Positions 3,609-64,000 of a stretch of DNA of 64,000 nucleotides are shown piece after piece. The notes beneath the pieces were generated by a model. The model was not told the origin of the DNA. It made no database searches and was given only the letters and a program-made list of their open reading frames with translations. Where the stretch lies: assembly GCA_963678705.1 (NCBI GenBank), contig OY783205.1, forward strand, positions 24,605,034 to 24,669,033, read 5' to 3'. Positions within the stretch are counted from its first letter, which is position 1, and every line of letters begins with the position of its first letter. This stretch comes from Panorpa germanica. Lineage: Eukaryota; Arthropoda; Insecta; Mecoptera; Panorpidae. Position numbers and translations under genes: made by a program.

Positions 3609-4199
3609 TGGGATTGTGTCCTATGTCTTAATTTCTATAAAAGTGTACTATATATTGATAAAGTCAAATGTCCAATTACTTTTTAATAACTCGTTATATG
3701 TTAAGAGATATTAACAATTAAAAAGGTCAGTTTGTCTCTTTAATTATTAAAGGGATTCAACGTTGTACACATTCGAAATACATGTGACATCACAACCTTA
3801 CAGCTCATACATCTCTGCTATATGTATTTATATATCAAAATATCAAATATTATTTACAGCTATTTCAAGGAACAATAAAATTTCAATATTATGTCTGCCT
3901 TAGCAGGGGTAAATAAAATAAAAACTTATTATTCTTTGAGTTGACTTGATTATTTTGACTACCAACAGCTACAAAATATTACCACAGCACTGACCTACTC
4001 AACAAACAACTGACGTTAAAATGAATTTCACGTCATACAAATATGGCCGACTATTTCTAGCGCTAAAACTACAATTCAAACTTTTAATTGGTATATCTCC
4101 GTCAATATTTAGATATTTAAGAAAATAGACACGTTAATACACATTTATTAACATCAATTTCAATCAACAATTGAAAAATCGACCACTAAAAAATGAGGA
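3609..4199 (-). mobile_element. MITE A, copy 1 (inverted, one terminus lost)
   Basis: Nearly full-length member of the MITE A family, reversed relative to 18548-19157. It starts TGGGATTGTGTCCTATGTC, which is the family's right end with one change from TGGGCTTGTGTCC. It runs through the family landmarks: AATATTATGTCTGCCTTA, CAACAAACAACTGACGTTAA and ATTTCTAGCGCTAAAACTA. It stops at AAAAAATGAGGA, lacking the final CACAAGCCCA. Left flank is AAA. Confidence 0.85.
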
Positions 4200-4789
4200 A
4201 TGTTAAGTTTGAATCAGCGGATAGTAACTAAAGAGATTTTCATTTATTAATATAAGTTGTTAGCTTATAATACCACTCTATCTCAGACCAATATCCAATA
4301 TTTAAAGTATTTAAATAATCCACTACAGTACATATTTTCCTTTATGACGCTGCATAATTTGAAAGTTATTATAACGCCTAAGAGTTATGAAACCTTTCAA
4401 CATTCAGAGCCAAATAACTGCCAAGATCAAATAGTTTTTTTTTAAACAAATGTAGTGTACGTGACAGCCGTAACCGTAGCCGTGGCGCTGCTATGCAGTT
4501 TAGATTTTATCCCATCTGGAATTGCATAGAAAAGTAAACCCTAGATTCTAGGTACGCTAGAACATGCACAGCTACACTACTGTAACAAAACTACTAGGAA
4601 AAATTATGATTTATATGTTTTATGCTTTGCTATGGGATAAAGATACGGTGTTATTAATGTTTAAAGCTACGAATATATGATGCACACACGAATAATACAT
4701 TTTTCATAGTGTAGTATGTTTGGAGGTTAGGGCGAACGCATACTAAAGACACGACTGTCTTAGATAGAATTTAGTTTTTGGAGAAAATT

Positions 4790-4818
4790 GTAGCGGAGAC
4801 CCCCCGGATCTCCGCTAC
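4790..4818. repeat. GC-rich perfect hairpin, 10-bp stem
   Basis: GTAGCGGAGA at 4790-4799 and TCTCCGCTAC at 4809-4818 are exact reverse complements around a 9-base loop, CCCCCCGGA. It stands out in DNA of about 28% GC. It is not followed by a T-run, so it is not an obvious terminator. It may be the end of a small foldback element. Confidence 0.5.
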
Positions 4819-6518
4819 TGCTTTTTAAAGATAATTAATGTATGTAGGTTAAATAATATTCATGTAAAACAAATAATAAAACAATTTTCAATTTTTATTA
4901 TCTTTTTCTCGATTCAACAATAGAAATAACATAAATTATAAAACTATATTTTAAAACATAAAGTTTTATGGAAGTATGGTATATACTTGTGCTTTTGTGT
5001 TGAATAAAATATATCAAAAACAAGGAAAGATGATATATATGTATAGAAATACGAGTTTGAAAATATATTTAGTGAAAAGTGCTAAATAATATATGTTTAT
5101 CTATATATTATATATATATACTTACACATACATGTATATATCTATATTGTAAAGTGGAAAAATATTGTGAAAATTTATTGCTAACAAAGTTTTAAAAACT
5201 GTCATAGTATCACAATAACATGTTGAAAATAATGTACGGGAATTTTTCCGAAAGTAAATGAGTAAATGGTTTTTAACTATGTCATAAATTTCAAACTGTA
5301 ATGATATAGTACATGCTGTATAACATAGAGTATTTATTTATTTTTAATTAATTGCAAAAATAAATGTTAAAATATTATAATTACAATAAATACAGGCGTA
5401 TGAAGATGGGTGATCGAAATTTATAAAAAAAATAAGAATAACTTTTTTTTGAGAAAATGTTAAGTGTAACAATAGAGCAACGAATTAATTGTTGCGAAAT
5501 ATAAATATTTAAATTTTCTTGAGAACGTTCTTAAATAAAACGTAGTAATATTTAAACTATTTTATACTCGTAATTTAATAATTGAGCAAAAGAACAAAAG
5601 TGTTCAGCGGGTATTCTCTGTTATTTGGATGGTATAAGACCACCTTAGAACACACAAAGTAAAGCCATTTGCACGTCGATCATTGAACCTCCGCCTGCTC
5701 ATGCATTTAATGACTTAACCAACAAACTTTTTATGCAACTTTTTTACTTTATTTAACATACATATTATTAGTTTCAAAACCGCAAAATGGCTTTTTTGTT
5801 GTTGTTAAAGTTTACACAAAATTGCTCTAACTGTTATTGTAATCATTTCGTTTGAAATACGTGCCCAGTGGTTTTTCAATTCGTCTACAATAAGTCATAA
5901 CTGTCTAGAAAAGTGTCTCTAAATTACTTAATGAGATAAATTGATGTAAACTGTGTATTTTACTAAAAAAATGTTTAAATAAAAGTTGTAGAAGGTTAAA
6001 AATCCTTTTCAATGATATATGATATGTTTACATGCTATAATAGGTTTAAAAGATATGGTCAAAATTGTATACGCATGTTGGATGTCATCCTCTGTTTTGA
6101 ACCTTTACTAATTTTCAATGAAGTGCTCTACTTTACAGCGGTGTAGCTCAATATTTATCAGACATACAACACATATTGCTGACACAAATTGTAGGAATTT
6201 CAGTCCTCTATTATATTGATATTAACTATTTCATCCTATGCCCAATTGGTAAGAAGATATTGCAATAAAAACCGAGTTCCAAGATGGAGACAAAATCTTC
6301 AAAATTAAATCAACTTTTTACCAGCTTCTCTGCCAATTCGACGAATTTCGAATCAATTCTGGATTTTGAAACTAGTCACAAGTAAAATAATATTTTCCGA
6401 AAGGTTTGTAAACTTCTTTATAATCGACAGGTATCAAGTATATTATAATGTAGTCACTTCTAGATTACGGTTAATGGAGGTGTTTTATATTTCTTAAATA
6501 TAGTTCAACTTACGAGAG
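4819..6518. other. AT-rich DNA without a recognisable gene
   Basis: Simple TA-rich stretches (about 5095-5130) and poly-A/T runs only. No exon with matching splice signals was found. Confidence 0.4.
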
Positions 6519-6570
6519 TTCGGCGGCGATTCATACAACAAGTTGTAGGGTATAAACTTCATTCATTCAT
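6519..6570 (+). mobile_element. MITE E, orphan left end
   Basis: TTCGGCGGCGATTCATAC followed by ACAAGTTGTAGGGTATAAAC matches the left end of the complete small element at 6971 (TTCGGCGGCGACTCATAC, then ACAAGTTGTGGAGTATAAAC). It may be a truncated copy, or the left end of a longer element into which the second copy inserted. Confidence 0.5.
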
Positions 6571-6724
6571 GGTTCATTTTTTAACCGTAGTAATTTTATT
6601 TAGTACACCTCCATGTCTATTAGTAATATTTTCGTGCCCCAACTTATAGTGACCCAAACCTTGCAAAATTAATCTAGGTTATAGGAACTGTCTCAATGAC
6701 AACCAACTCTATTAAATTTACTCA

Positions 6725-6955
6725 ATAAAATAACTGAAAAACATGAATTAGTATTCCTTAGTTTGTAGTTGCATTTTTAATCGGAACCAAACGAAGATAA
6801 CAAATAATTAAAGTGTAAGGTTAAACCTATGCGTCTATAAGTTTATATTTCTGATATTCGAATCTTAAGAGCACGATAAACCATCCTAAATATTGCAAAA
6901 TTTCGTACCTTTTTAGGAATTAATTTCTACTTGTAGCATACATTCTTTTTACATT
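6725..6955 (+). repeat. Repeat D, copy 1
   Basis: Matches 44137-44360 in the same orientation. Shared blocks are AAAATAACTGAAAAACATGA, TTAAAGTGTAAGGTTAAA, CTATAAGTTTA and GATATTCGAATCTTAAGAGC. It lies between two MITE E left ends. It may be interior sequence of a longer relative of MITE E, but the second copy shows no GGCGGCG end nearby. Confidence 0.55.
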
Positions 6956-6970
6956 ATAGGGATATGAGAA

Positions 6971-7148
6971 TTCGGCGGCGACTCATACTTAAAACAAGTT
7001 GTGGAGTATAAACTGCCGATATAACTAAAAAGTACTGACTCACTTATTTTTCTATAATGTATATAGAAACGAATAAGATAAAATTCATTATCGTATTATA
7101 GATTTATACCGGTGTTATAACCTCTTTTAAGTATAAGTCGCCGCCGAA
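6971..7148 (+). mobile_element. MITE E, complete small inverted-repeat element (178 bp)
   Basis: The left end TTCGGCGGCGACTCATACTT and the reverse complement of the right end TTCGGCGGCGACTTATACTT agree at 19 of 20 bases, and the match extends through the next four A residues. The GGCGGCG core is striking in such AT-rich DNA. A possible related terminus, GAGTCGCCGCCGTTC, is at about 19263. No open frame is inside. No clear target duplication was seen, so the superfamily is open. Confidence 0.7.
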
Positions 7149-7265
7149 CTATCGTGATTTGGACTATATCAGGATGTTTAAATGGAACTCTTTTTAAATA
7201 GAATAAAAACATATTCTCAAACTGTTGATAAGGTTATATATATATAATACTACTCTATTACTTCT

Positions 7266-7345
7266 TTTTTTATATTTATTTATTTATTTGCCTTGACTAT
7301 TATTCGTCATAGCCACCATCTAACATTTTCTATACATAACTCTAC
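7266..7345 (-). mobile_element. LINE Q 3' tail fragment
   Basis: TTGCCTTGACTATTATTCGTCATAGCCACCATCTAACATT is nearly the same as the 3' end of LINE Q copies at 14650 and 21348 on the minus strand. It then diverges. It is preceded on the plus strand by TTTATTTATTTATTTG, the complement of a short simple-repeat tail. Confidence 0.6.
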
Positions 7346-9785
7346 TACTTACACAATTAACTTTTAAACTGAAAATATTATTTTCGAAATATTACTACTA
7401 AATTTTTCTAAAATAGAAAACTAGTTATGATGTGATTACCATAGTTAGAGTTGTATTCTCTATATAAGTATTTTATGTAAGATTCTTTTCTCAAAAGAAA
7501 GCGTATGTAATTCATACCTAATTATATAAATTAACAATAATTTTAATATCAAATTATAAATAATGACATAATAACCAAAATATACAGCTAGGTCATTCTC
7601 CTAACAAAAGATCACTGCACTTTACATCAATAAAATTAACCTAAACGTATAATAACAAAAAAATAATTCCCATCATTTTGTTTTTTTAAAAATTATCTTA
7701 ACCTAAACTAATAAAGTAATATAAATTTCAAACCACGTATCACATAGTTATGAAAGAGATAACATTATACTAAAAATATGTAAGAGTGATAGAGGTAGTT
7801 GTATAAGTTGTAATGCAATATATGCATATGCAAATAGTAACAAACAAATCACTGATATAATATTCTGAACACGGTTATATAAGCCATATCTTCATGGTGT
7901 TTGTGCTACGACTGCTGCTGCTACTGCTGCTGATTTTAACTCTCTGAAATGACATCTGGGGATGAATTTTATAACTAGCATATTGCATACAGAATAAATT
8001 ATATGATTGTCCTAGTCAAGATCTAATTTACACGATGTCAAATGAAACCTAACCTTACTTTATACCCCCTTCTCCTCCTCTTCACAAGCTAGCATTAGTA
8101 GTATTATGTCAATAAACTTCATGCAGTCATGATGCCAAAGTGCACTTTCTTGCAACAATTCGATTTGTACGAGTCATGAGCGTCGGCAGAATATTTAACA
8201 AGGGGAACATGATAATGAAGCCAGAAGCTGCCGATCTCAAAATATCAACATTGCAAAACTATTTTAAACCTATTTTTACTATAGACTTGGCCTTCACTGA
8301 TGTACCTAATGAATAAAACTTGTTTAACATATATTTATTATCGTTGTGAAATCAAATTAGTGTCTTTATTATTAATTCATGTCCATATTTGACTTTGTCA
8401 GGCTTGCAATCAGATTTGGTTGGTATGTATATGCATGGAACATTCCTAAAATGAAGTATGATATATTCATACAATGTATACATTAATAGCCTGCGGAAAG
8501 ACACGTCTATCATCAATCAAATATATTTATCGGACATGTTTAATTACTTTTAATTGCTAATGATTCTGTTTTACAATCTCCTTGCCCTTTCACCGATGAT
8601 CGAAGTTAAAACATATGTCTTATTACTTAACTTTATGAAAGTGTTACAATCAGTGACGGATTAGGACATGAATGCGTTAAATTCGACTCTGGTATTCTCA
8701 TACAAAAACCCTAATTACGAAAACCAATTAGCAAAGTTGAAGTTTTACTTTTTCATATTTTTTCTATTTTAAAACTTATTTGTTTATATTTTCTTGCACG
8801 AATAAATCTTTGAAATGTCATAGCGCATTTACAAATTGCTTTCGATGTTTTTCCGGTTTTATGCATAAAAAAATGTATGAGAGAGGGAGAGGGATAGGGG
8901 TAGTCTCGCCGTGGAATAAATGTCAAATCGAACAATGAATACAGCAGGAAAATCAACGACTACTAGTATATGACACATACAGTCGCTAACACTGCAGTAG
9001 CTATCTTTTTTTTTTTGCTAAGTACTGTATTTGAATTGAAGATGGCAGCACTAAAATATGTTTGTAATATTGGTAATTTAACACATTTCGTCTACCAATG
9101 TCCTAATAATCTGCTAAATATATTTAATAGACCTAGAGATCCCTCTTCTGTATTTTAACAGTAGTAATTACGCTGTCGAATCTTGGATTATTAAGAGGGA
9201 GATAGAGCTAGAGCACCACTCTGTTCATCAATTATTTAGTTTTTAATTTTCGTAACTACGTATTTATTAGTTGAATTTAAATCACTAGAAATAAAATTAC
9301 TTTCTTATGTCTAAACTTATTTTAATTTATTTGAAAGTTGAAGGGTCCACAGCATTAATGATTAATTAAATAAATATACAAACATTTTATCGTCATGTAT
9401 GTACATGCACCTACTAGTTTTTAACGCAACAACAAAAACAAAAGACTTCTTTCAGCAGTAATTGACGTTCACTTAGCGTTAGTGACAAATAATACTTGAT
9501 AACTAAACCAACAAATGGTCCATTGTGCGTCTTAGTGCTCTGTACTGGCTACGTGTCAATTTATGTACTTTAACGCAGTAATTGTCATCAAGTAGGTCGA
9601 TCTGGACATCATAGCTCACTATTTCCTTATCGTTAATTATTTTATTTACATTTATTTTATGACTACATGGTCTAAGCACACAATGAGTTCACTTATTAAT
9701 GATAAAAACACCTCTACACGCTGATAATAAAATAATTAGAAAGCTTTTAAAAAAATTTAATTTTAATCGAAATTTATTACTAAGG
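7346..9785. other. Gene-free AT-rich stretch with a CTG-type microsatellite at about 7910-7933
   Basis: ACTGCTGCTGCTACTGCTGCTG (about 7911-7932) is an imperfect trinucleotide repeat. A GA-rich patch (GAGAGAGGGAGAGGGATAGG) is near 8880. Open frames at 8753-9158 are short, low-complexity and lack splice context. No gene is supported. Confidence 0.4.
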
Positions 9786-16785: not shown

Positions 16786-18502
16786 GATCTCTACTAAAAT
16801 ACATATTTTCAATTGTAAAAGAGACAACAAATATATCTTCATTTAAGTTGGAAAGAGAAACAATATTCTTATGAAAAGATTCTTACAATTCTGTTCCATA
16901 GATGACATCTATCTGATATCTGAGTGAAAAAGAATCGATTTCTTGACTGGATCTTTACCCAGCTTCATTCCACCAAAATGTTAACTGTGATATTCTTAAA
17001 ATTTAGTCTGCTTCTGTCCGCATATTGTCTAAATTTACAACTCTTTGTTCCAAAATCCATACCTAATTATTTTCCATCCACATGACGTTGGTTACACAAA
17101 GAGAGAGAGTGAGAAAACAGATCGTAGGGAGAGTAGGTAATAGACGTTCAAACAATAAATACTTCTTAAGTAAATATATTTTAAAATGCGTTTACTAAGT
17201 AAACTAATATTTGAGCTACTTTATCAGCTTTGATAAGGAGAGGAACTCGAAATTTATTTCGTTCGTTTACCTTAGTAATGGTAAATAAGATATTCTCTTC
17301 CTTTATGATTCAAGGAGTTGTTCCGATATCATTTGATAACAATCTTTGTTTAATTTTGTGAGCTATAGGTGTCAGTCTGGAAGATAACGATTTGTTTTTA
17401 AAAATAATACATGCTACGATAGCTTCAGTTGGTGGGAATGAACCGTTCACTTTTTTAACACATCCTTTTCAACCTTTTCGGGTTGTGAACTATTTTTTTA
17501 TGGCCGAATCTTTGGGATTCTTATTGAAACATGTACTAACATGTTCTCATTAATGTTAATTATCAATTTCAATCGAATATATATGTTGTCAAGTCTTTTA
17601 AGCGATCTGTATGTGTCGAAGTTCCGTGTTCCCCCAGATATGAGCACCTTTGTACCTCTGCATGATATCATCTAGGTATAGCTACTTAAAATTTCTAATT
17701 CTGCTTTACCGTTTATTATAAAGCTATATTCTACTGACATAGATTTAGCATTATATTTAACGTATATAAGTGCGCAGACAAACTTATCCGTAATGAGAAT
17801 CAAAGACAACCTAAGTTTTATTCTGTTTCAGTTGCGCGCTTGTCTCGTTTACTCTCATACTACGCTTACATAAGTGTTTCTCGCTTACTCTTATATGGAT
17901 GCTAACTAAAAAAAGGGTCTTAGCACAGACTTTAAAGTTGTGCATGCTATTTATGTCTTAACACTATTTATGTTTCTATTGTCTAATTCAATGTTGATGA
18001 AAGTTAAAGTTTCTGCAAGGTTAATACCGTTTTGTGTCTCCAATTTGCGAATGCTATTAAAATGCAATAATATTTACAGCTCAAATACCTTCAGTTTAAA
18101 ATAACCCTAGCTAATGTCATAAAATAATTAACTAAATTGCACATATTCATGTCAAATAACTTTCCAGTTAAGTCATTAGGTCTGACTTACCCCATTAACA
18201 TTGTAACTTTCGTCTGATCGATAAGTAAAGCTGGTTATTTCAAACTGTAATAAATATTTTATAAACTTCAGGCAATTTACTAATAAATTTTGTAAATAAC
18301 ATAGTTATGAAATACACCTTGTAAATCACATAACTTAAAGTTACTTTCAAATATTTACTTCAAAATATCTAAATATACTTTCCGTTTCTCCAATACAGGG
18401 ATGGAGAACAAGTTAAGACATGCTACAACGCTAATTCTAACCTTGTAAATGCAATCAACTGTTTCAGACTGGAAGGGAATGCAATAGTCTCTTTCTTAAC
18501 AG
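16786..18502. other. AT-rich DNA without a recognisable gene
   Basis: A GA run (AGAGAGAGAGTGAGA, about 17098-17113) is the only patterned feature seen. Confidence 0.4.
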
Positions 18503-19188
18503 TGGTGTATCGATAAAAATGAAGTAAAAGTTTGTTCTCATTGTAAATGGGCTTGTGTCCTCATTTTTTAGTAGTCGATTTTTCAATTGTTGATTGAAAT
18601 TGATGTTAATGAATGTGTATTGGCGTGTCTATTTTATTAAATATCTAAATGTTGACGGAGATATAGCAATTAAAAGTTTGAATTGTAGTTTTAGCGCTAG
18701 AAATGGTGAAATGCATTTTAACGTCAGTTATTTGTTGAGTAGGTCAGTGCTGTGATAATGTTTTGTAGCTGTTGGTAGTCGAATAATCAAGTCAAATCAA
18801 AGAATAATAAGTTTTTATTTTATTTAACCCTGTTAAGGCAGACATAATATTGGAATTTGAGTGTTCCTTGAAATAGCTGTAAATAATATTTGATATTTTG
18901 ATATATATATATTCATAAAGCAGAGATTTATGTGCTGTAAGGTTGGTAACCTTACACAAGGATTGTGATGTCACATGCACTTGGAATGTGTACAACGTTG
19001 AATTCCTTAATAATTAAAGACACAAAATGACTTTTTTAATTGTTAATATCTCCTAACATATAAGGAGTTATTAATAAATAATTGAACATTGGAGGTTCTA
19101 GTAACCCACTTTATATAGTACACTTTTATAGAAATTAAGACATAGGACACAAGCCCATTATGTTAGTGCAAAACAACTCCAATACACC
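18503..19188 (+). repeat. Repeat B, copy split by a MITE A insertion
   Basis: The two flanks of MITE A (18503-18547 and 19158-19188) join to form a sequence matching the uninterrupted copy at 43841-43917: GTGTATCGATAAAAAT, GTTTGYTCTCAT, then TTATGTWAGTGC and AACTCCAATACACC. The ends (GGTGTAT and ATACACC) are short imperfect inverted repeats, so B may be a tiny MITE. Its value is as an empty-site reference for the insertion. Confidence 0.7.
18548..19157 (+). mobile_element. MITE A, copy 2 (both termini present, 610 bp)
   Basis: Both termini are present: TGGGCTTGTGTCCTCATTTT at the left, and ATAGGACACAAGCCCA, its inverted match, at the right. No open frame of transposase size is inside, so it is non-autonomous. 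Comparison with the unoccupied repeat B at 43841-43917 shows insertion between AAA and TTA without gain of flanking bases, or equivalently an AT duplication around GGGC...GCCC. See the separate finding on target-site behaviour. Confidence 0.9.
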
Positions 19189-20119
19189 CTACAGTATACA
19201 ACTTGGCGTACTGTCGTATAGGTACGTGGTATGTATCTTTTGTGTGCGACAGGCCTAGGTTTGAGTCGCCGCCGTTCTAAATTTTTTAGGACTTTCTTTC
19301 TATATTTTGGCTCTCATCTAGTTAATATTTCTTATTTAGCTAAATAAAGGTCTCTAGACTAGATAGCCTACAAATAAATTCAGTGCTTGGTGAGTGTATT
19401 AGCTTACTCATTTATTTTCTGTACAAATGTAAACCTAGTGCTCGGAGATAGTTTGCAACCTCTGCTAAAACTATATTACTAAATATATATTACAGCTATA
19501 AATCAAATATTTTTATTACAACCTGTAAATCACTGAAAAGACATTTAGCTCAACAATTCGATGACTTTACCAGGAAGTCAAGTGATAACACTTAATCACT
19601 TAAATATTTATAAATCGACAAAAACTTGAAAACTAAAAGTTTCACAAAATCAACTCATTTAAAAATAAATAACAACTAAAACAAGTAATAAAATAATAAA
19701 ATGCAATAAATAGAAAACGAGTTGTTAGTTCTTTCGCTCAACAAAATACTATTAAGCATTCGCAAGGCTAAACATTTGTGTGTGCTGGTTGTTCTGCAAA
19801 TGACTGACGAAAGGGGAGCATCGTAAATCTCCTTCAAGGAATAACAAGAAAGACACAGGACGAGGTGGAGAACGAAACATAGTGAAGGACGGTGTAGCAC
19901 AACAACAGAACGCTATAAAACCCATAGTACTGTGAAAAACCCGTAAAGTACGTCATGAAAATAATAAAAAGGAAAATATATGCATCAAACACTTACCGTT
20001 ATTGCTTGTGTCTTCAAATTATTGCTAAGTATGGTATTTGTATGTCAAACTATGTATTTTTAGTTGGCTCAGTTTTTTTTATTTATCTTGACAACTATAA
20101 CCTTTGCAAAATTTTTGTG
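19189..20119. other. AT-rich DNA; possible MITE E end near 19263
   Basis: GAGTCGCCGCCGTTCTAAA at about 19263 resembles the right end of MITE E, without a partner. The minus-strand frame at 19676-19900 is Leu/Cys-rich, without splice sites or start context, and is not credited. Confidence 0.35.
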
Positions 20120-30037: not shown

Positions 30038-30075
30038 AATGGTCAGTGGTCATGTCATATTATTTCAGCAAGCCC
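30038..30075 (+). repeat. Short repeat shared with the filler in MITE A copy 3
   Basis: GGTCATGTCATATTATTTCAGCAAGCC is, in reverse complement, nearly the same as 31340-31376 inside the short MITE A copy (about 90% over 35 bases). Confidence 0.55.
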
Positions 30076-31269: not shown

Positions 31270-31423
31270 TGGGCTTGTGTCCTATGTCTTAATTTCTATA
31301 AAAGTGTAGTATTTATTGATAAAGTGGGTTAGGTTACTTGGCTTGCTGAAATAACATGGCATGACGATTGACCATGAAAGTCGTTGGAAAAATCGACCAC
31401 TAAAAAATGAGGACACAAGCCCA
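31270..31423 (-). mobile_element. MITE A, copy 3: 154-bp internal deletion derivative with filler
   Basis: Both MITE A termini are intact, in reverse order (TGGGCTTGTGTCCTATGTCT at the left, AATGAGGACACAAGCCCA at the right). About 60 bases of the right arm and 35 of the left arm remain. The middle is replaced by about 56 bases (31329-31385) that match 30038-30075 inverted. Flanks are CAA and TTT. Confidence 0.85.
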
Positions 31424-35810: not shown

Positions 35811-36870
35811 ATGTCTAGGCATGGTACATCTTAGTCTGACCTACTTTAAATACTACCTGAAAATATTACCTATTAAATAATAAATACAAAAGTGTCGATA
35901 GTTAAGACACTGACTCTCTCAACAAAGAATTATATTTCTTTATTATGTTGCACCACGCTGTGCGGCATTATCGTTGGCTGACCGTCTCACATGGCAGTTG
36001 TAGATGACCACGTGACCCAGACGGAGTTTGCAGAGAAACATTTAATGAAGACATCAGGAATCAGCGTCCGCGTTTTAGCAATCGTGCTACAACCAAGCGC
36101 ATTAGATGCGGTAGTACTCCATGCGGTAGGTTGCTTAGCAGACAAGCTGGTCTTCAAGTTGTCTTGGTGTTGGAATTGATCATATATATGTATACATAAA
36201 GATGCTGGACATTGTGGAAAATAATCGCGATGTTTGTTGTATGTATTAGTAGAAACTTCTTATGTCTAAATGAGAAGACAGAACGATTAATGTGGTCTAC
36301 TTCGTTTAGTCTCAAAACCTTGCGTATAGATTTATTCTTTCAAGTTTTGGACGGCTTTATTACTTAAGTATAGTCCAATAAAATCGTTGTTAACATTAAG
36401 GCAAAGATAATAGGTCTATCACTTTATTAATTTTCAAAAAGACAATATTATTTTTAGAAAAGGAATTCGTCAACATTAGAGGACTCTTTCACACTGCAAT
36501 CTGTGTTCTTCCGACTTGCGCCTTTTTTAGTAGGTTGTAGTTGCTTTAGCACACTTTAACGTGAGAGGAAAGTTTCTATTTTGATGTTTATTAATACACC
36601 ACTGTATGTATTTGATACGTCCGTATTCATAATGTGATTTATACATTTTGTCATTAAGTGGCGCACTAATTTGTTTCTTCTTCACTATTTCCATCGTTCT
36701 TCATAGACCGTCTTAATGATTTCCTTAGTTGCTTCTTTTTGCACATCTCCTTTCTTACTCCTTTTCATTTTTCCCCCATTTATCTTTCGTCGTCCTCTGC
36801 TTCACCATCCTTACTTGATTTAGATTTTCTTTTCCTAGCTGTAACCTAACTTTCTGCTGCTTTTGTCAAT
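35811..36870. other. Mixed DNA; GC-richer open stretch at about 35985-36180
   Basis: The stretch at 35985-36180 is open in two plus frames: one begins MAVVDDHVTQTEFAEKHLMK, another reads DPDGVCRETFNEDIRNQRPR. The minus strand is also open. No splice sites or family match could be seen; it may be transposon-derived. Confidence 0.25.
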
Positions 36871-43359: not shown

Positions 43360-44039
43360 GGCCTGTCTCAGTATGGCACCGTATTTAAGCGAATTTATGC
43401 CGGACGTATACGGGCTACTACGCTTTACCTATCCGAACCATGTAAATGTAATGAGATCGCTCTGGAGCTCTCAGACTGCACGATACAAAGCAGTCCGAAT
43501 ACGGGCGGCACTACCTCGCACATTAGAAGCGTATAAAGGCGAATTTTATTCAAGCGTTACCACTACTACAACGATATCCTATCCGAACCTTTGTAAATGC
43601 AAACAGCCGCCTCAGACTGGAGGGGATACCTAAGATCGCTTGTTATTACGCTGCAATACGGTTCAAATGAGGTCTATAGACGACATCGCTTATGACGAGT
43701 ATGTTCTGCATGCAGTTTATGTTTGTATTTCAGTGAATCATGGACACCGATACCGATACCGATACGATAGAACTAAATTTAAATTCATGACAACCAGAAC
43801 TCAGATATATAATAATTGCTAAAGTCCCTTTAATACCAGTAGTGTATCGATAAAAATTAAAGTTAAAGTTTGCTCTCATGATAAATTATGTAAGTGCTAA
43901 AGAACTCCAATACACCCCCTAATACACGACTACAGACATCTGTGACACACATAGGCGGTTTGCTTTGTAGCTCATCCAATCCGCCGATTTACGTCCGAAT
44001 ACGCCGTCGCTTAAATACGGTCCCATACTGAGACAGGCC
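43360..44039. mobile_element. MITE G, PIF/Harbinger-type, 680 bp with TTA target duplication
   Basis: The ends GGCCTGTCTCAGTATGGCAC and, inverted, GGCCTGTCTCAGTATGGGAC match over about 33 bases (through GTATTTAAGCGA) with one mismatch. TTA precedes (43357-43359) and follows (44040-44042), the 3-bp duplication typical of PIF/Harbinger. Sub-terminal CGGACGTA blocks are shared by both arms. An inner direct repeat (TATCCGAACC...TGTAAATG) occurs at about 43429 and 43579. No transposase is present. Repeat B lies inside. A related end is at 61444-61520. Confidence 0.85.
43841..43917 (+). repeat. Repeat B, uninterrupted copy inside MITE G
   Basis: AGTGTATCGATAAAAATTAA through AACTCCAATACACC. It is the unoccupied counterpart of the copy at 18503-19188 and shows what the MITE A target looked like: GATAAATTATGT. 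Confidence 0.7.
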
Positions 44040-44360: not shown

Positions 44361-44998
44361 CTAATGATCTCCAATCAAATAATGATATTTTGACATGCAA
44401 AATTAAGGAGATGTATTTCAATATAATAAATAAGAATAATACCATAAAATTTATGTGGATACCAGGACATTGTGGAATAAGAGGAAATGAAATTGCGGAT
44501 AAATTGGCAAAGGAATCTATAAAATTTTTAATATAATCAAAAAATTAAACTTCAATTTAAGAAACACAGATTTCATTAACAAAAGTCAGTGAAAAGGAAA
44601 AGATTATTATATGTTACATCCAAATTTAAGTAAGAAAAGATGGTTTAGAAATGAATCCCGCAAAATTATATCAAGTATAATCAGAATCAAAAGTAATCAT
44701 TGTAAAACTCCAGCTCACCTGTACAAAATTAATATTAAATCTGACGATAGATGTCAATGTGGTGAAGAAGGAACTTTGGATCATATTATATTTGAATGCA
44801 TAAATTATAGTTTAGAAAGATCAAAATTCAATCGTGAAATATTAGATGTGATTAAAACTTTTCCTGTTAATACTAAATTTTTGTGTAGTGATTTTAAATT
44901 AATTAGTAAATTATTTATAAAACAGATATATTATAAAACAGAATTATAAAAAAATAATAAACATTTTCAAAAAAAAAAAATTGAATATAGAATCCATC
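44361..44998 (+). pseudogene. LINE Q, RNase H end and C-terminal region
   Basis: The first part encodes the end of an RNase H domain: KIKEMYFNIINKNNTIKF then MWIPGHCGIRGNEIADKLAK. The His and Asp of the H..N.xAD motif are present. A 40-bp deletion relative to the copy at 45848 shifts the frame after KESIKF. The frame reopens at 44611 (MLHPNLSKKRWFRNESRKII) through the Cys block DDRCQCGEEGTLDHIIFEC and a Lys/Ile-rich end to the stop at 44947-44949. This is the C-terminal part of an I/Jockey-group polyprotein. It is 5'-truncated, and its 3' end differs from the usual LINE Q tail. Confidence 0.85.
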
Positions 44999-45847: not shown

Positions 45848-46464
45848 GATACCAGGACATTGTGGAATAAGAAGAAACGAAATTGCGGATAAATTGGCAA
45901 AGGAATCAATAAATTTGGTAATTGAGATGAAAGTGAAATTACCTACATATGAAATTTTTAATATAATCAAAAAATTGAACTTCAATTTGAGAAGTCAAGA
46001 TTTCATTAACAAAAGTCAGCTAATAAAAGGAAGTTATTATTATTATTATATATATTAATTGTGTGTGCCTTTCGGCTTTACAATCTACAGTATTATATTT
46101 CTAATACATTTCATTCCTATATACATTCAAACTTAAAACTAAACTTAACTAGACTTTTTACTACTTCCAAAAGTGCTTTCTGCTTCTTCTTCTTTTGACC
46201 CTCTCTATTATTCTCCACCAGCTTATTTATTCTCCTGTTTTTCCTTTCCTTCTTACTATTTTAGGTAGTTATTATTATATGTTACATCCAAATTTAAGTA
46301 AGAAAAGATGGTTCAGAAATGAATCCCGCAAAATTATATTAACTATAATCAGAATCAAAAGTAATCTTTGTAAAACTCCAGCTGACTTGTACAAAATTAA
46401 TATTAAATCTGACGATAGATGTCAATGTGGTGAAGAAGGAACTTTGGATCATATTATATTTGAG
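45848..46464 (+). pseudogene. LINE Q copy interrupted by a LINE R insertion
   Basis: The 5' segment (45848-46043) encodes IPGHCGIRRNEIADKLAKES, then LPTYEIFNIIKKLNFNLRSQ. The 3' segment (46267-46464) resumes at MLHPNLSKKRWFRNESRKII and runs to the DDRCQCGEEGTLDHIIFE block, where it is cut. Without the insertion the two segments are in one frame. This copy keeps the 40 bp that the 44361 copy lost. It is truncated at both ends. Confidence 0.87.
46044..46266 (-). mobile_element. LINE R 3' end inserted into LINE Q, 12-bp target duplication
   Basis: On the minus strand the sequence ends GTAAAGCCGAAAGGCACACA followed by a TAATATATATAATAATAATAA-like tail, the LINE R 3' end. AGTTATTATTAT occurs at 46032-46043 and 46267-46278, a duplication of the LINE Q target. 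LINE R therefore arrived after LINE Q at this site. Confidence 0.88.
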
Positions 46465-46904
46465 GGCTGGTGTAGGAGGAGGAGCAGATAGTTCAGGAGG
46501 GGTCTATATTGAAGGATTGATAATAAGTAAATATGTATGAAATAAAATGTCGCATCTCCTATTTAATAAACAACAAGCTGTAAAAGTATACGTCACACAA
46601 ATCTTATTACTAAAATTGTCTAGAATTTTCTTAGTTCTATTCCTTGGAAGCAACTGAACAAGGCAGATCCAACATTGTTAATAAACAAATAACTTATTTA
46701 TAAGTAAATCTCTAACAATCAATCTGTCAGTCGTAGATGATACAAGTCGGCGTTCTATGTCATCAATAGATCATCTATATCATCACCATCGTAAACCGGG
46801 ATCCAATGCTCTTAAAACACATTTTTTTATTTTGGCGGAAACAAAAAAAAAACCAAGTGTATAATTACTGAAGCATGACGAGTCAAAAAGTCAAATCAGC
46901 AGTT
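46465..46904. other. No gene recognised
   Basis: AT-rich after the end of LINE Q. Confidence 0.4.
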
Positions 46905-49674: not shown

Positions 49675-50030
49675 CAGAGGCGGCCTTTGGGGGTGGCAAG
49701 CAGGGCAACCGCAAGTAGAAAAATTCATTACTATATATGTATTTGAATCTCCTGCCTCACGTTTTAGAAAACCCACTTGAATCACTGCGTATATCTTTTA
49801 AGGCAATCATGTAGCTTAGTTTTCCATTATTAATATTTGTCGTCTTTGTGCTTGTTAATTTTTATACATCTTCCAATATAAAATTTTACAACTCTACATT
49901 TATTTATTTATAACTTTTGCATTTCTCGTCAATCATTATCAAAAATACTTACTTTCAATTTACATAAATTACACAAAGAACAAATGACTCGCAAAGATCT
50001 GCCGTCCGGGCCTCGCAATGGCTAAGGCCA
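49675..50030 (-). mobile_element. hAT-type MITE F, inverted and diverged copy
   Basis: Reads as the reverse of 54327-54745. The left end CAGAGGCGGCCTTTGGGGGT continues GGCAAGCAGGGCAACCGC; the right end CTCGCAATGGCTAAGGCC lacks the last GCCACTG. The interior matches in order (GCACGAAGACGACAAATATT and AAATTGAAAGTAAGTATTTT on the minus strand). Confidence 0.8.
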
Positions 50031-51358
50031 TTCGTACCTTAAGTAAAACTAGAAAAATTCTTTCCTAATTCTTTGAAGGTTAAATATTTTAGTTACTTCC
50101 TAATGATGGACTTCTATTGCTAACTCATTTCCCTCTCCTTTCGTCGTAATCTTCTTAAATCCTCATTACTTTTTCTCTTATTCCTTCTTTCACCGTGCCT
50201 TCTTCCTCCGCTGACTTATTTTTAGGTCTAAATGCGACAGAGGAATAATTCGCAGTGTGTATTCACGTTTTGGATCTGGGTTGGATCTAGCCTTTAGTGC
50301 TAATAAAATAATGTTTAGGTTAATGCTCAAGATAATTTAAAAGAAACTACGCAGTATCAACTTGTTGAAAACATTTTCCAAAACCACCTACAATTTATTT
50401 ATTAAATGGTCATTTATTTATGGAGATGGTTTACAAGGTTTGCAAGCTATATTCAGGCTGCAGTTACTCTTTTTGAATCACGTAAGAAGTTTTGTTAAAC
50501 AATACAAATTCAAAGCTTTTATGATAAAATATTTGTATAAAAATCCAGTAAAATATAAAATAATATATTTCTCTCACCAACTATGCTACAATTTCATTCC
50601 GCGGTTCGTTCATCGCGTTTCGCTTTTCGCGGGGATAAAAATGTGATCCCCTTAAACATGTTTTATAGCAGTCGTTCCGATAGTGTATACAACAACCCCC
50701 CTGTCCTCCCGACAACACCATCTACCGTATACATTGCACCCTCACAGAGAAATAGAACGAGAGAGATGATGATGATGTTGTACAACTTGAAGTTTGTTGT
50801 TGTTTAACCAAACCGCTGCTCCATGATAAACAAATGTTGTCGGTGTATGTCCACATTGAATTCAGTGAAACTATAATCTAGAAAATCTGTAACTATAAAT
50901 TATAAGACCTTACTGCAGTAGTAAACGAAACAGGACAATAGATAACGGGATAGTATAATAGTGATTTGGGTAATAAAGCAAAGCAGAATTAACTACAATA
51001 TCCTGATGCTGGAGTGCTGGAGTCCTGGACCAAGGAAGACATTCTGGTGTGATAAATTGTCAACCGAGTTGGCACATTGTATGCAGTTATTTTAGGAGTT
51101 ATATATAAATAATTGTCTGTATGTTTCCGGTAGAGGTTGTAAAGCATTTGTGCTATTTTTAATTTTAATGGCCCAGATAAATAAGCAGTAGTGATAAGGA
51201 TTTGTATTATTATTCCTGCTAAACACAGTTATATTTTACTTAAAGTTTTGTGGCCTATTTTATTGCTTTTTGAAAAATAAATCAACCTTTTTTCGGATTA
51301 ACAAAATTTTCAAGAATTAAAAAAGTTTAAAACGTTTTTATTCCTAATCTGCTTTCCC
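50031..51358. other. Mostly AT-rich; GC-richer stretch at about 50590-50810
   Basis: The stretch (TTCCGCGGTTCGTTCATCGC, TTCGCTTTTCGCGGGGATAA) is open in one plus frame (50583-50807), but it has no family match or splice context. A MADF- or transposon-like origin cannot be shown. Confidence 0.3.
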
Positions 51359-51362
51359 TTAA

Positions 51363-51727
51363 GGTGAAACGATACTTGGCCATTTTTGATACGTAATATA
51401 GATGACGATACTACACAGCAGGTTAAATATTATCAAGAAAACCATTTTTTTTATGTTTAAATCGTTTTACCTAGAAAATATAGCAATATTAATTTTCAAA
51501 AGTTATTTTTGTGGTTTCAACTCATTAAAAGTCAGTGGAAGAAAGCTTAAATTGTAGATACGTTATTCATCTAACTAATTGCAGCTTTAGATTTTGATTA
51601 GCGTTTATAATTACTTACATAAAACGATTCAAACATAAAAAAACATGATTTTTTGATAATATTTAACCTGTTGTATAGTATCGCTATCTATATTTCGCTA
51701 GAAAAAATGGCCAAGTATCGTTTCACC
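51363..51727. mobile_element. MITE H, 365 bp, TIRs of about 107 bp, TTAA flanks
   Basis: The left arm starts GGTGAAACGATACTTGGCCA. The right arm is its near-perfect inverse and ends TGGCCAAGTATCGTTTCACC. The match extends for about 107 bases to TTTAAATCGTTTTA. TTAA lies on both sides (51359-51362 and 51728-51731), the target duplication of piggyBac-type elements. No coding sequence. A transcript would fold into a long hairpin. Confidence 0.85.
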
Positions 51728-51731
51728 TTAA

Positions 51732-53600
51732 GTAAAATTATATATGTCTTTGTTTTTTGTTGTTAAGACATATTATTATTTCTTTTTTTTGGTTTTTGTT
51801 TTCGATTACACTTTTTACATCATGTTCACTTGATCTATCTAAGCTACTCCACTGCCTTAAAAAATTACGATTATATATGTACATAATCAATTTAATTTAA
51901 TAACAACCAAACTCGCGCAAATAATAAATAAATCATTATATTATGAAATGTTTTTGTTTATTAAATCAATGTAATGTTTTTTATTAATTATGGTTTTATT
52001 TGTGATCAATATTTAATCAATTTTATAATTCGTTTTAGTAAAATTGAAAATTATTAAATTAAATGTTCGTTTAATAAATAAATTAAAATTAAATTTTAAA
52101 TACCCATTTCTGTTTTATGTATTACTGATTATTTAATATCTAATGTCTGTGTATGAAAATAAATTAATATTTAAATGGCAGAGTTGTATTAAGGACTCGT
52201 GCGTTGCACTACCAAATATTTATAACTTGAAAAGATGCACAAAATATCATATAATACCCCAATTACATACAGACTTTATACTTAGGAAGTTGCAAAGAAT
52301 CAACTTAATCTCTATGCCGAATTAATTAAAACTTATTTTCGCTCGAAGTGCGCTCTTCACAACGCACGTAGCTGTTCAACATAACCAGTATGGAATATAC
52401 GATACATCATATCATATACAACACAAAATAAGTACAAAATCGTATTACTATTTATAAATATATTGAATTTATTTTCTCTTTGTTGACTTTTATAATATTA
52501 TGATATTATTAAAGTTATCGGATGTCAGAAGTGGGATTGGTTTTTTTTTATTATTACGTCGTACACAAGCTGTGGGTTATTGGTATTTGCTGTGACAGTA
52601 TTCCACAGTGGGAGATTATATACGAGTATATGATTTAAATACGGATTAAGAAATATTGTATTTTTATAATTGAATTTTTTTTTTATACAAGTACATATTT
52701 ACCTATATATCTCTAATATATATCTCAATAGCTATTTGCATAATCCCAGATTGTATTGAGTCTTTTTTATTCAAAGATATAAATTCGATGAAATTGAATT
52801 GATGAATCGTAAAAATGATTTATTTTAGTAACTTAATATAGCGTAAGGTATTAAATTTATGATGTGGATATATACATACATATGCAGACTGTACATATAT
52901 GAATATTTAATGTAATGGTAATTATCCAGCACGTTAGTAATTATGACTATTTAACGAGTGAGTAAATTATCACCCACACGTATAATGACTCCATTGTTTT
53001 TTAAGTATTTATTTTCGTTGTACAAATAACGATGTAGGAGAAAGAGTATATAGTGTTTAGTATATAAGCTGTAACGTATTATATAAAAACCACGGAGTCA
53101 AGGGTGCCCGTTCAATGGCTAACATTCAAACTGTTAAAATTTAGAATCAAGATTCTTGAATTACTTACAGGAAATATATAAAAAAAAAATTATAAATCTA
53201 TTTATACGAGTAACATAAAGTAAATTGTTAACAAATACGCTGGAGGTTATTGTTAAGTATCATTCTCACTTACTGTTTTAACATTAAATTGTGTGTTTTA
53301 GTTTCAGAAGTTTTATTAATTTTTTATTTTGAATGTACTTATTGTGCAATTATTATCACGTCGGTTCAATTATTATCACGATTGTGTACTTCAATCAATC
53401 AAAATGATTACAGTATTAAATCGAACTATAGTATTCACCTTGTTCGGAAACCAACAAATAGAATAACTAATATGTCTTCTAAATAATAGCAAAATTTAAG
53501 CCGTAACAAATACTTCTTTAATACAGAAATTATAATTTTTATATACCATGTATATAACCTCAATTCATATTCAGGTGTATGCATCTGAAGTTCACAATGC
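51732..53600. other. AT-rich DNA without a recognisable gene
   Basis: The plus frame at 52143-52325 begins with an ATG and lasts 60 codons, but has no splice context or recognisable content. Confidence 0.35.
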
Positions 53601-54326: not shown

Positions 54327-54745
54327 CAGTGGCGGCCTTAGCCTTTGCGAGACCCTGGGCGGTAGAACTTTGCAAGGCCCCGGGGTGGCAGATCTTTGCG
54401 AAGGCATTGTTCTTTGTGTAATTTATGTAAATTGAAAGCAGGTATTTTTGATGATGATTGAAGAGAAATGCTAAAGTTATAAATAAATAAATGAAGAGTT
54501 TACAAATTTTATATTGGAAGATTTATAAAAGTTAACAAGCACGAAGACGACAAATATTAATGATGATAAACTAAGGTACATGAATGTCTTAAAAGATGTA
54601 CGCAGGGATTCAAATGGGTTTTCTAAAACGAGAGGCGCGAGATTCAAGTACATATGTAGTAATATTTTTTTCTACTTGGGTTGTTGCGCGAGTGTGCGAG
54701 GCTCCGGGTGATTGCCCTGCTTGCCACCCTCTAAGGCCGCCCCTG
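54327..54745 (+). mobile_element. hAT-type MITE F, complete (419 bp), 8-bp target duplication
   Basis: Starts CAGTGGCGGCCTTAG and ends CTAAGGCCGCCCCTG; these ends are inverted relatives. TAGGAGAT at 54319-54326 and TAGGAGCT at 54746-54753 form an 8-bp duplication with one mismatch. A CAG-type end plus an 8-bp duplication is the hAT signature. Non-autonomous. Confidence 0.88.
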
Positions 54746-58934: not shown

Positions 58935-59274
58935 TGTGCTTGTGTCCTCATTTTTTAGTGGTCGATTTTTCAATTATTGATTGAAATTGATGTTAATAAA
59001 TGTGTATTTGCGTGTCTTTTCTATTAAATATCTAAATATTGACGGAAATATAGCAATTAAAAGTTTGAATTGTAGTTTTAGCGCTAGAAATAGTCGGCCA
59101 TATTTGTATGACGTAAAATGCATTTTAACGTCAGTTATTTGTTGAGTAGGTCAGTGCTGTAGTAATGTTCTGTAGCTGTTGGTAGTCAAATAATCAAGTC
59201 AAGTCAAAGAATGATAAGTTTTTATTTTATTTAACCCTGTTACGGCTGACATAATATTGAAATTTCATTGTTTC
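58935..59274 (+). mobile_element. MITE A, copy 4 (right half missing)
   Basis: Starts TGTGCTTGTGTCCTCATTTT, one change from TGGGCTTGTGTCC, and matches the family to ACATAATATTGAAATTTCAT. Left flank is GAA. Confidence 0.85.
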
Positions 59275-60160: not shown

Positions 60161-60796
60161 TGGGCTTGTGTCCTCATTTTTAAGTGGGCGATTTTTCAAT
60201 TGTTGATTGAAATTGATGTTAATAAATGTGTATTAACGTGTGTATTTTATTAAATATCTAAATATTGACGGATATATAGCAATTAAAAGTTTGAATTTTA
60301 GTTTTAGCGCTAGAAATGGTCGGCCATATTTGTATGACGTGAAATGCATTTTAACGTCAGTTATTTGTTGAGTAGGTCAATGCTGTGGTAATGTTCTGTA
60401 GCTGTTGGTAGTCAAATAATCAAGCCAAGTCAAAGAATAATAAGTTTTTATTTTATTTAACCCTGTTACGGCAGACATAATATTGAAATTTTATTGTTCC
60501 TTGAAACAGCTGTAAATAATATTTAATATTTTGATATATAAATACATATAGCAGAGATTTAAGATCTGTAAGGTTGGTAACCTTACACAAGGATTGTGAT
60601 GTCACATGCACTTGGAATGTGTACAACGTTGAATCCCTTTAATAATTAAATAGACAAAATGATTTTTTTTAGTTGTTTATATCTCTTAACATATAAGGAG
60701 TTATTAAAAAATAATTGAACATTTGAGGTTCTAGTAACCCACTTTATCAATATATAGTACACTTTTATAGAAACTAAGACATAGGACACAAGCCCA
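60161..60796 (+). mobile_element. MITE A, copy 5 (full length, 636 bp)
   Basis: The most complete copy. Left end TGGGCTTGTGTCCTCATTTT, right end ACATAGGACACAAGCCCA. Contains TTAGCGCTAGAAATGGTCGG, AACGTCAGTTATTTGTTGAG and TAAGGTTGGTAACCTTACAC, the last holding a palindrome (AAGGTTGGTAACCTT). Flanks are TAA and TTG. No open frame of transposase length. Confidence 0.92.
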
Positions 60797-63751: not shown

Positions 63752-64000
63752 TGGGCTTGTGTCCTCATCTTTTAGTGATCGATTTTTCAATTGTTGATTG
63801 AAATTTATGTTAATAAATGTGTATTGGCGTGTCTATTTTATTAAATATCCAAATGTTGACGAAGATATAGCAATTAAAAATTTGAATTGTAGTTTTAGCG
63901 CTAGAGATGGTCGGCCATTTTTATGACGTGAAATTTATTGTATACGTCAGTTATTTGTTGAGTAGGTCAGTTCTGTGGTAATGTTTTGTAGCTGCTGGTA
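63752..64000 (+). mobile_element. MITE A, copy 6 (cut by window end)
   Basis: Starts TGGGCTTGTGTCCTCATCTT after flank GAA. Matches the family to TTTTGTAGCTGCTGGTA at the window edge. Confidence 0.9.

Follow-up and report, generated by a model that had tools for sequence, protein, structure and literature searches.

An abundant AATT-targeting MITE in the Panorpa germanica genome with the features of a non-autonomous ISL2EU transposon

INTRODUCTION

Transposons of the ISL2EU group generate AT duplications within the target A/AT/T, have terminal inverted repeats (TIRs) starting with GG, and carry a THAP/HTH/DDE transposase together with a YqaJ gene (Han et al. 2015, PMC4482050). The same account gives Spy elements an AAATTT target, no duplication and one ORF, and PMC9179366 describes the gene sets of both groups likewise. 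The present study concerns MITE A, a very abundant repeat first noticed in a window of 64,000 nt, the whole stretch of DNA analysed here. The original prediction assigned MITE A to Spy. We find that its target and the gene content of its likely parent are those of ISL2EU.

MATERIALS AND METHODS

Copies of MITE A outside the window were sampled on C1 in 20 stretches, each of 9.9 kb, that surround exact occurrences of the 13-bp end TGGGCTTGTGTCC. Ends were tallied by anchoring on the inner sequence CTTGTGTCCT, which yielded 58 ends, 43 of them with distinct outer 13 bases. Flank-base patterns for use on the whole genome were defined as AATGGGCTTGTGTCC, AAVGGGCTTGTGTCC and AVGGGCTTGTGTCC. In the search for empty sites, the joined flanks of 33 TIR pairs, 30 from the C1 stretches and 3 from the window, served as queries. 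Transposase loci were read over 5.4-5.8 kb around four DDE loci and over 2.7 kb at the transposase 5' side of 20 others, 24 of 151 in all. For the estimate of divergence, 23 copies of 500-700 bp were aligned and 20 closely related, correctly oriented ones were used. The remaining rows were L041_8714 and L049_2862, which differed from the column majority by 50-52% and were apparently misoriented in the alignment, and L038_402, a diverged relative at 18.9% from the majority.

RESULTS

MITE A in the window

Six copies of MITE A lie in the window (Table 1). Both ends, inverted repeats of 14 bp, are kept in three of them: the copy in repeat B, the 636-bp copy and the short copy. The 13-bp end TGGGCTTGTGTCC occurred nine times in the window at two or fewer mismatches, compared with a mean of 0.31 and a maximum of 3 in 100 shuffles. 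Stop-to-stop frames reached at most 73, 61 and 50 aa in three copies, the 73-aa frame being that of the copy in repeat B. In the short copy, 36 bp of the non-MITE insert match positions 30039-30074 in inverted orientation (89%, E 8e-9), as if gap repair had copied them from 1.2 kb away or as if the common source were another repeat.

Table 1. Coordinates of MITE A copies, empty sites and the partner locus
Feature	Position	Strand	Details
Window	G000:C2:24605034-24669033		assembly of 464,208,970 bases, 249 contigs
MITE A copy in repeat B	18548-19157	+	610 bp with T/A ends; 608 bp if GGGC...GCCC
Left TIR of this copy	18548-18561	+	14 bp, TGGGCTTGTGTCCT
Right TIR of this copy	19144-19157	-	14 bp
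Left flank, repeat B	18480-18547	+	81% of 69 columns to 43817-43885
Right flank, repeat B	19158-19189	+	90.6% of 32 columns to 43886-43917
Unoccupied paralogous site	43817-43917	+	84% over 101 columns with joined flanks
Two-ended MITE A copy	60161-60796	+	636 bp; flanks AA/TT
Short MITE A copy	31270-31423	-	154 bp: 62 bp right arm, ~55 bp other, 37 bp left arm; flanks AA/TT
MITE A copy, left-arm end lost	3609-4199	-	
Truncated MITE A copy	58935-59272	+	left arm only
MITE A copy cut at window edge	63752-64000	+	
Occupied site on C1	L047:8081-8678; duplicate L048:1218-1815		empty: L050:9613-9728, 94% of 120 columns
Occupied site on C1	L043:2701-3335		empty: six copies of a repeat; left side only 19 bp
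Occupied site on C1, nested in another MITE A	L051:4821-5453		empty: 11 places; L051 site has 2 bp fewer beside junction
Occupied site on C1	L056:6107-6687		empty: L049; left side ~20 diverged bases
Partner locus	G000 C5:15.92 Mb (TIR at L068:1346-1358)	-	TIR flank AA
DDE_Tnp_4 match, partner locus	C5:15918999-15919487		136.6 bits
YqaJ match, partner locus	C5:15917821-15918207	opposite to DDE match	46.0 bits; one internal stop; ~0.8 kb from DDE match

The window contained no tRNA, nothing in it matched Rfam at the gathering score, and a Pfam scan of five of the eight frames of at least 110 aa gave no transposase match. Weak zf-RVT matches, both below the cut-off, were found in the frames at 44593-44949 (E 2.4e-4) and 46153-46491 (E 4.3e-3), which are probable LINE 3' fragments. 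The window also contains large imperfect inverted repeats, one at 51358-51732 (72% self-inverted) and a pair formed by 49706-50018 and 54370-54683 (88% inverted).

Empty sites

The original prediction held that MITE A interrupts repeat B and that an intact copy of the site lies in the same window. This is confirmed by a 101-column alignment of the joined flanks, gap-free at the junction, where the occupied copy reads TGTAAA/TTATGT and the empty copy GATAAATTATGT. The match has an E value of 3.5e-26 and a score of 120, and none of 1000 base shuffles scored above 29. The intact site had been placed at 43841-43917; it is present there, and the match is longer, beginning at 43817. The element can thus be delimited either as TGGGC...GCCCA with no duplication or as GGGC...GCCC with a 2-bp duplication of AT. 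Further homology to repeat B joins 18423-18478 to 43566-43626 at 77%; at the 43-kb site an additional ~190 bp separate the two pieces. A third copy of repeat B near 36541-36605 (minus strand) was unconvincing, its score being reached by 7 of 300 dinucleotide shuffles.

Junction-spanning matches were obtained with 6 of the 33 joined-flank queries and represent five distinct sites, the one in the window and four others (Table 1). No junction gained bases beyond T/A or AT. The view that insertion involves no duplication longer than AT is thereby upheld, and the search for empty sites with a duplication of 3 bp or more, proposed with it, returned none at the five sites. No 3-bp TWA duplication of the PIF/Harbinger type was seen there either. 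Two of the five sites, those in L043 and L056, depend on ~20 bp on one side. At the L047/L048 site, 4 bp that are present in the occupied copies but absent from the empty one lie 7 bp from the junction. In the empty repeat copies that correspond to L043, TATT or CATT stands in place of the AATT of the occupied copy.

Target sequence

A recount in the window agrees with the earlier tally of six left flanks ending in AA and three right flanks starting with TT. The wider sample shows that the target of MITE A is AATT. Outside the T that adjoins GGG, the first base was A in all 43 distinct ends and the second was A in 42, while the third was A in 10, C in 13, T in 15 and G in 5. The adjoining T itself was present in 43 of 43 ends, a count that is largely given because the C1 stretches were picked by exact TGGGCTTGTGTCC; the bases outside it are unaffected by this choice. 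In the unselected window ends T adjoined in nine of nine, and AAT preceded GG or GT in all nine. The TIR start, GGGCTTGTGTCCT, had GGG in 41 of the 43 ends, with one GTG and one GGA, under the same selection by exact TGGGCTTGTGTCC.

When both ends of an element were considered, 32 of 33 TIR pairs had AA...TT flanks. The exception, L041:4976-6144 with AA...TA, is a composite of two left-type ends and lies outside the 500-700-bp size range. All 15 two-ended sites of 500-700-bp copies had an AATT core, and none had AAATTT. The 15 sites and 43 ends differ in their flanking letters, although some might still be duplicates of a single site. They are not all independent, since a larger repeated segment contains some of them. 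Identical flank letters of MITE A recur at several places on C1 (L040, L047-L050, L054 and L056), where copies appear to have travelled as part of such a segment.

Abundance and age

Exact copies of the 13-bp end number 18,276 in the 464-Mb genome (9198 and 9078 by strand), compared with 2 (0 and 2) for the reversed control. The 20 copies used for divergence differ from the column majority by only 1.7-4.8%, which suggests a fairly recent expansion.

A partner locus on C5

The genome has at least 151 DDE_Tnp_4 matches (381 candidates, 150 scored) and 91 YqaJ matches, and at some places on C1, C3, C5 and C6 the two lie within ~1-2 kb of each other. Exact MITE A ends were present in three of the 20 stretches at transposase 5' sides (L067, L068 and L070; 54 kb in total). 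About two would be expected by chance at one per 25 kb, so proximity of a TIR to a DDE gene carries no weight by itself. Only in L068 does the end face its DDE gene. From this TIR inward, the first 398 bp align to MITE A positions 1-389 at 85%, and an ATG follows at base 416, past the MITE-like arm. The reading frame in L068 is disrupted close to its beginning, and its pieces were scored separately. One is THAP-like (E 0.0011; 20.2 bits, under the Pfam curated cut-off of 23.9) and another is HTH_Tnp_4-like (E 2.3e-5; 24.3 bits, under the cut-off of 27), while a third piece of 26 aa had no meaningful match. Together with the DDE_Tnp_4 and YqaJ matches in Table 1, these make up the gene set of ISL2EU, and the locus is the likely parent of MITE A.

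Two related loci were compared with L068. A sister locus adjoining DDE and YqaJ matches, L072, is collinear with L068 bases 3-634 (65%, E 9e-27), from the arm through the THAP region, and L072 is also matched directly by positions 3-152 of MITE A (74%, E 5e-20). Because the collinearity runs through the arm into the THAP region, the arm of L068 is a native ISL2EU end and not a landed MITE. In a second copy of the partner, L076, two segments of 704 bp and 243 bp are 97.7% and 96.7% identical to L068. Homology in this copy begins at L068 base 395, with other sequence upstream, so the arm is not seen in it. On the far side of the partner, 1.3 kb (L081, C5:15916250-15917550) contained neither a TIR nor a match to MITE A; its left part, judged by eye, looks like an inserted retrotransposon. 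The search for an autonomous partner with these ends, also proposed earlier, has led to a locus of the ISL2EU type, a group with published AT duplications, and one of its two ends has been seen. As far as the locus was read, this is the kind of partner that the original prediction had named as contrary to it.

Other candidates were rejected. Four long TIR pairs on C1 (L037-L040) proved to be MITE A arms around other sequence; in one of them, L040, a Helitron Rep/helicase frame (4639-7965; Helitron_like_N, PIF1) lies between the two arms. The loci L057, L058, L059 and L060 had no TGGGCTTGTGTCC at two or fewer mismatches in the 5.4-5.8 kb read, though L058 carries ISL2EU genes. Exact-pattern scans gave 0, 0 and 24 matches to three patterns in viral sequences and 0 and 4 matches to two patterns in GTDB, and none of these 28 stretches had a second end at one or fewer mismatches.

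Several further transposon families were seen. L060 (G000:C3:15292500-15298000) is a Pangu-like DDE_Tnp_4 element with the TIR GGGCGCGTTC and AAT on both sides; among the matches listed, nine of this type score 96.8-97.1 bits and have a 195-aa frame. At L057 (G000:C4:17214000-17219700), 23 DDE_Tnp_4 matches have 116.4 bits and 22 of them, among the matches listed, have an open frame of 325 aa, which suggests that a DDE_Tnp_4 family from a different group has been active recently. Eight YqaJ matches at 67.8 bits (e.g. C1:24745313-24745750) share a frame length of 243 and a single in-frame TAG, as if a stop-bearing copy had multiplied.

DISCUSSION

MITE A is very probably a non-autonomous deletion derivative of an ISL2EU element (PHIS superfamily), moved in trans by the transposase of its parent into AATT. 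Internal deletion of the parent would have kept ~400 bp of the transposase-side end and ~220 bp of the other end and left no gene. The left arm is observed to be collinear with the partner locus; the right 220 bp presumably correspond to the partner's YqaJ-side end. The THAP/HTH/DDE transposase of the parent, with the YqaJ gene adjoining, would act on the ends common to both and mobilize MITE A in trans by cut and paste into AATT. By analogy with the published ISL2EU group, the cut would most likely be staggered by 2 nt at A/AT/T, and repair would duplicate AT around GGGC...GCCC.

The original prediction favoured Spy, with blunt insertion between AAA and TTT and no duplication of the target. 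It is true that no bases are gained at the empty sites if T/A are counted as element, that Spy and ISL2EU transposases form sister clades, and that ~60% of the insertions of an active Spy are in AAWTT, so that its target is not strictly AAATTT (PMC11304231). However, absence of a duplication alone cannot indicate Spy, because a constant palindromic target gives an identical sequence either way. What decides the matter is the target, which has no preference for A at the third flank base and was never AAATTT at the two-ended sites, and the gene content. Spy is described as having one ORF (PMC4482050), whereas a THAP-like piece and an adjoining YqaJ match are present at the partner locus. We consequently reject the assignment to Spy, which now appears very improbable. 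The correction is one of group level within PHIS, since Repbase files Spy under ISL2EU (PMC12730594). A more modest departure would keep MITE A in ISL2EU but treat T/A as its true outer bases, inserted bluntly at AA^TT, so that AT is no duplication. The T adjoining GGG is indeed as constant as the TIR in the unselected window ends, and the product is identical in sequence to that of a 2-nt stagger; these copies look alike under both readings of AT, as a genuine duplication or as end sequence. The published description of ISL2EU, itself based on the same type of evidence, gives an AT duplication in A/AT/T (PMC4482050), and we regard blunt insertion as unlikely. About equally unlikely is a broader version of it, by which ISL2EU and Spy would share one blunt, duplication-free chemistry, the published AT would consist of the terminal base pairs of the two ends, and the groups would differ only in target, AATT or AAATTT.

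The partner locus could also have arisen if a truncated MITE A copy had landed upstream of an unrelated ISL2EU gene. The MITE match does end no more than ~20 bp from the start codon, and in L076 the L068 sequence begins only beyond most of the arm. The sister locus L072 argues against such an event, as it is collinear from the end through 400 bp into the THAP region and is itself matched by MITE A. We believe that this origin has very little to recommend it, and that the ISL2EU locus on C5 is the likely parent.

These results correct the family assignment of a very abundant repeat and name a likely source of its mobility. They also illustrate a general trap: when a target is constant and palindromic, a short duplication and an extra end base look identical. 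A search of the literature, Repbase aside, for the 12-mer at the ends of MITE A and its complement gave no description of these ends; the seven papers returned seem unrelated from their titles and opening abstract lines, and no such family appeared among the ISL2EU and Spy papers listed, as judged by their titles or the start of their abstracts.

Comparison with the described groups places MITE A as follows. Pangu (PMC4482050) is represented in the same genome by the Pangu-like L060, which also has GGGC ends, but L060 is flanked on either side by AAT, a 3-bp duplication of the ANT type, and MITE A has none. With Spy (Han et al. 2014, cited in PMC4482050; PMC11304231) MITE A shares an A/T-rich palindromic target and, if T/A are element, the lack of any gain over the empty site; it differs in its AATT rather than AAATTT target and in a partner with a YqaJ neighbour rather than a single transposase ORF. 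With ISL2EU it shares a TIR starting with GG, AT adjoining the ends with A before and T after, and a partner with THAP/HTH/DDE and YqaJ. It differs from ISL2EU in being ~0.6 kb long and coding for nothing, with a parent known here from one end. MITE A fits ISL2EU proper and is an ordinary, very abundant member of an already known kind of mobile DNA.
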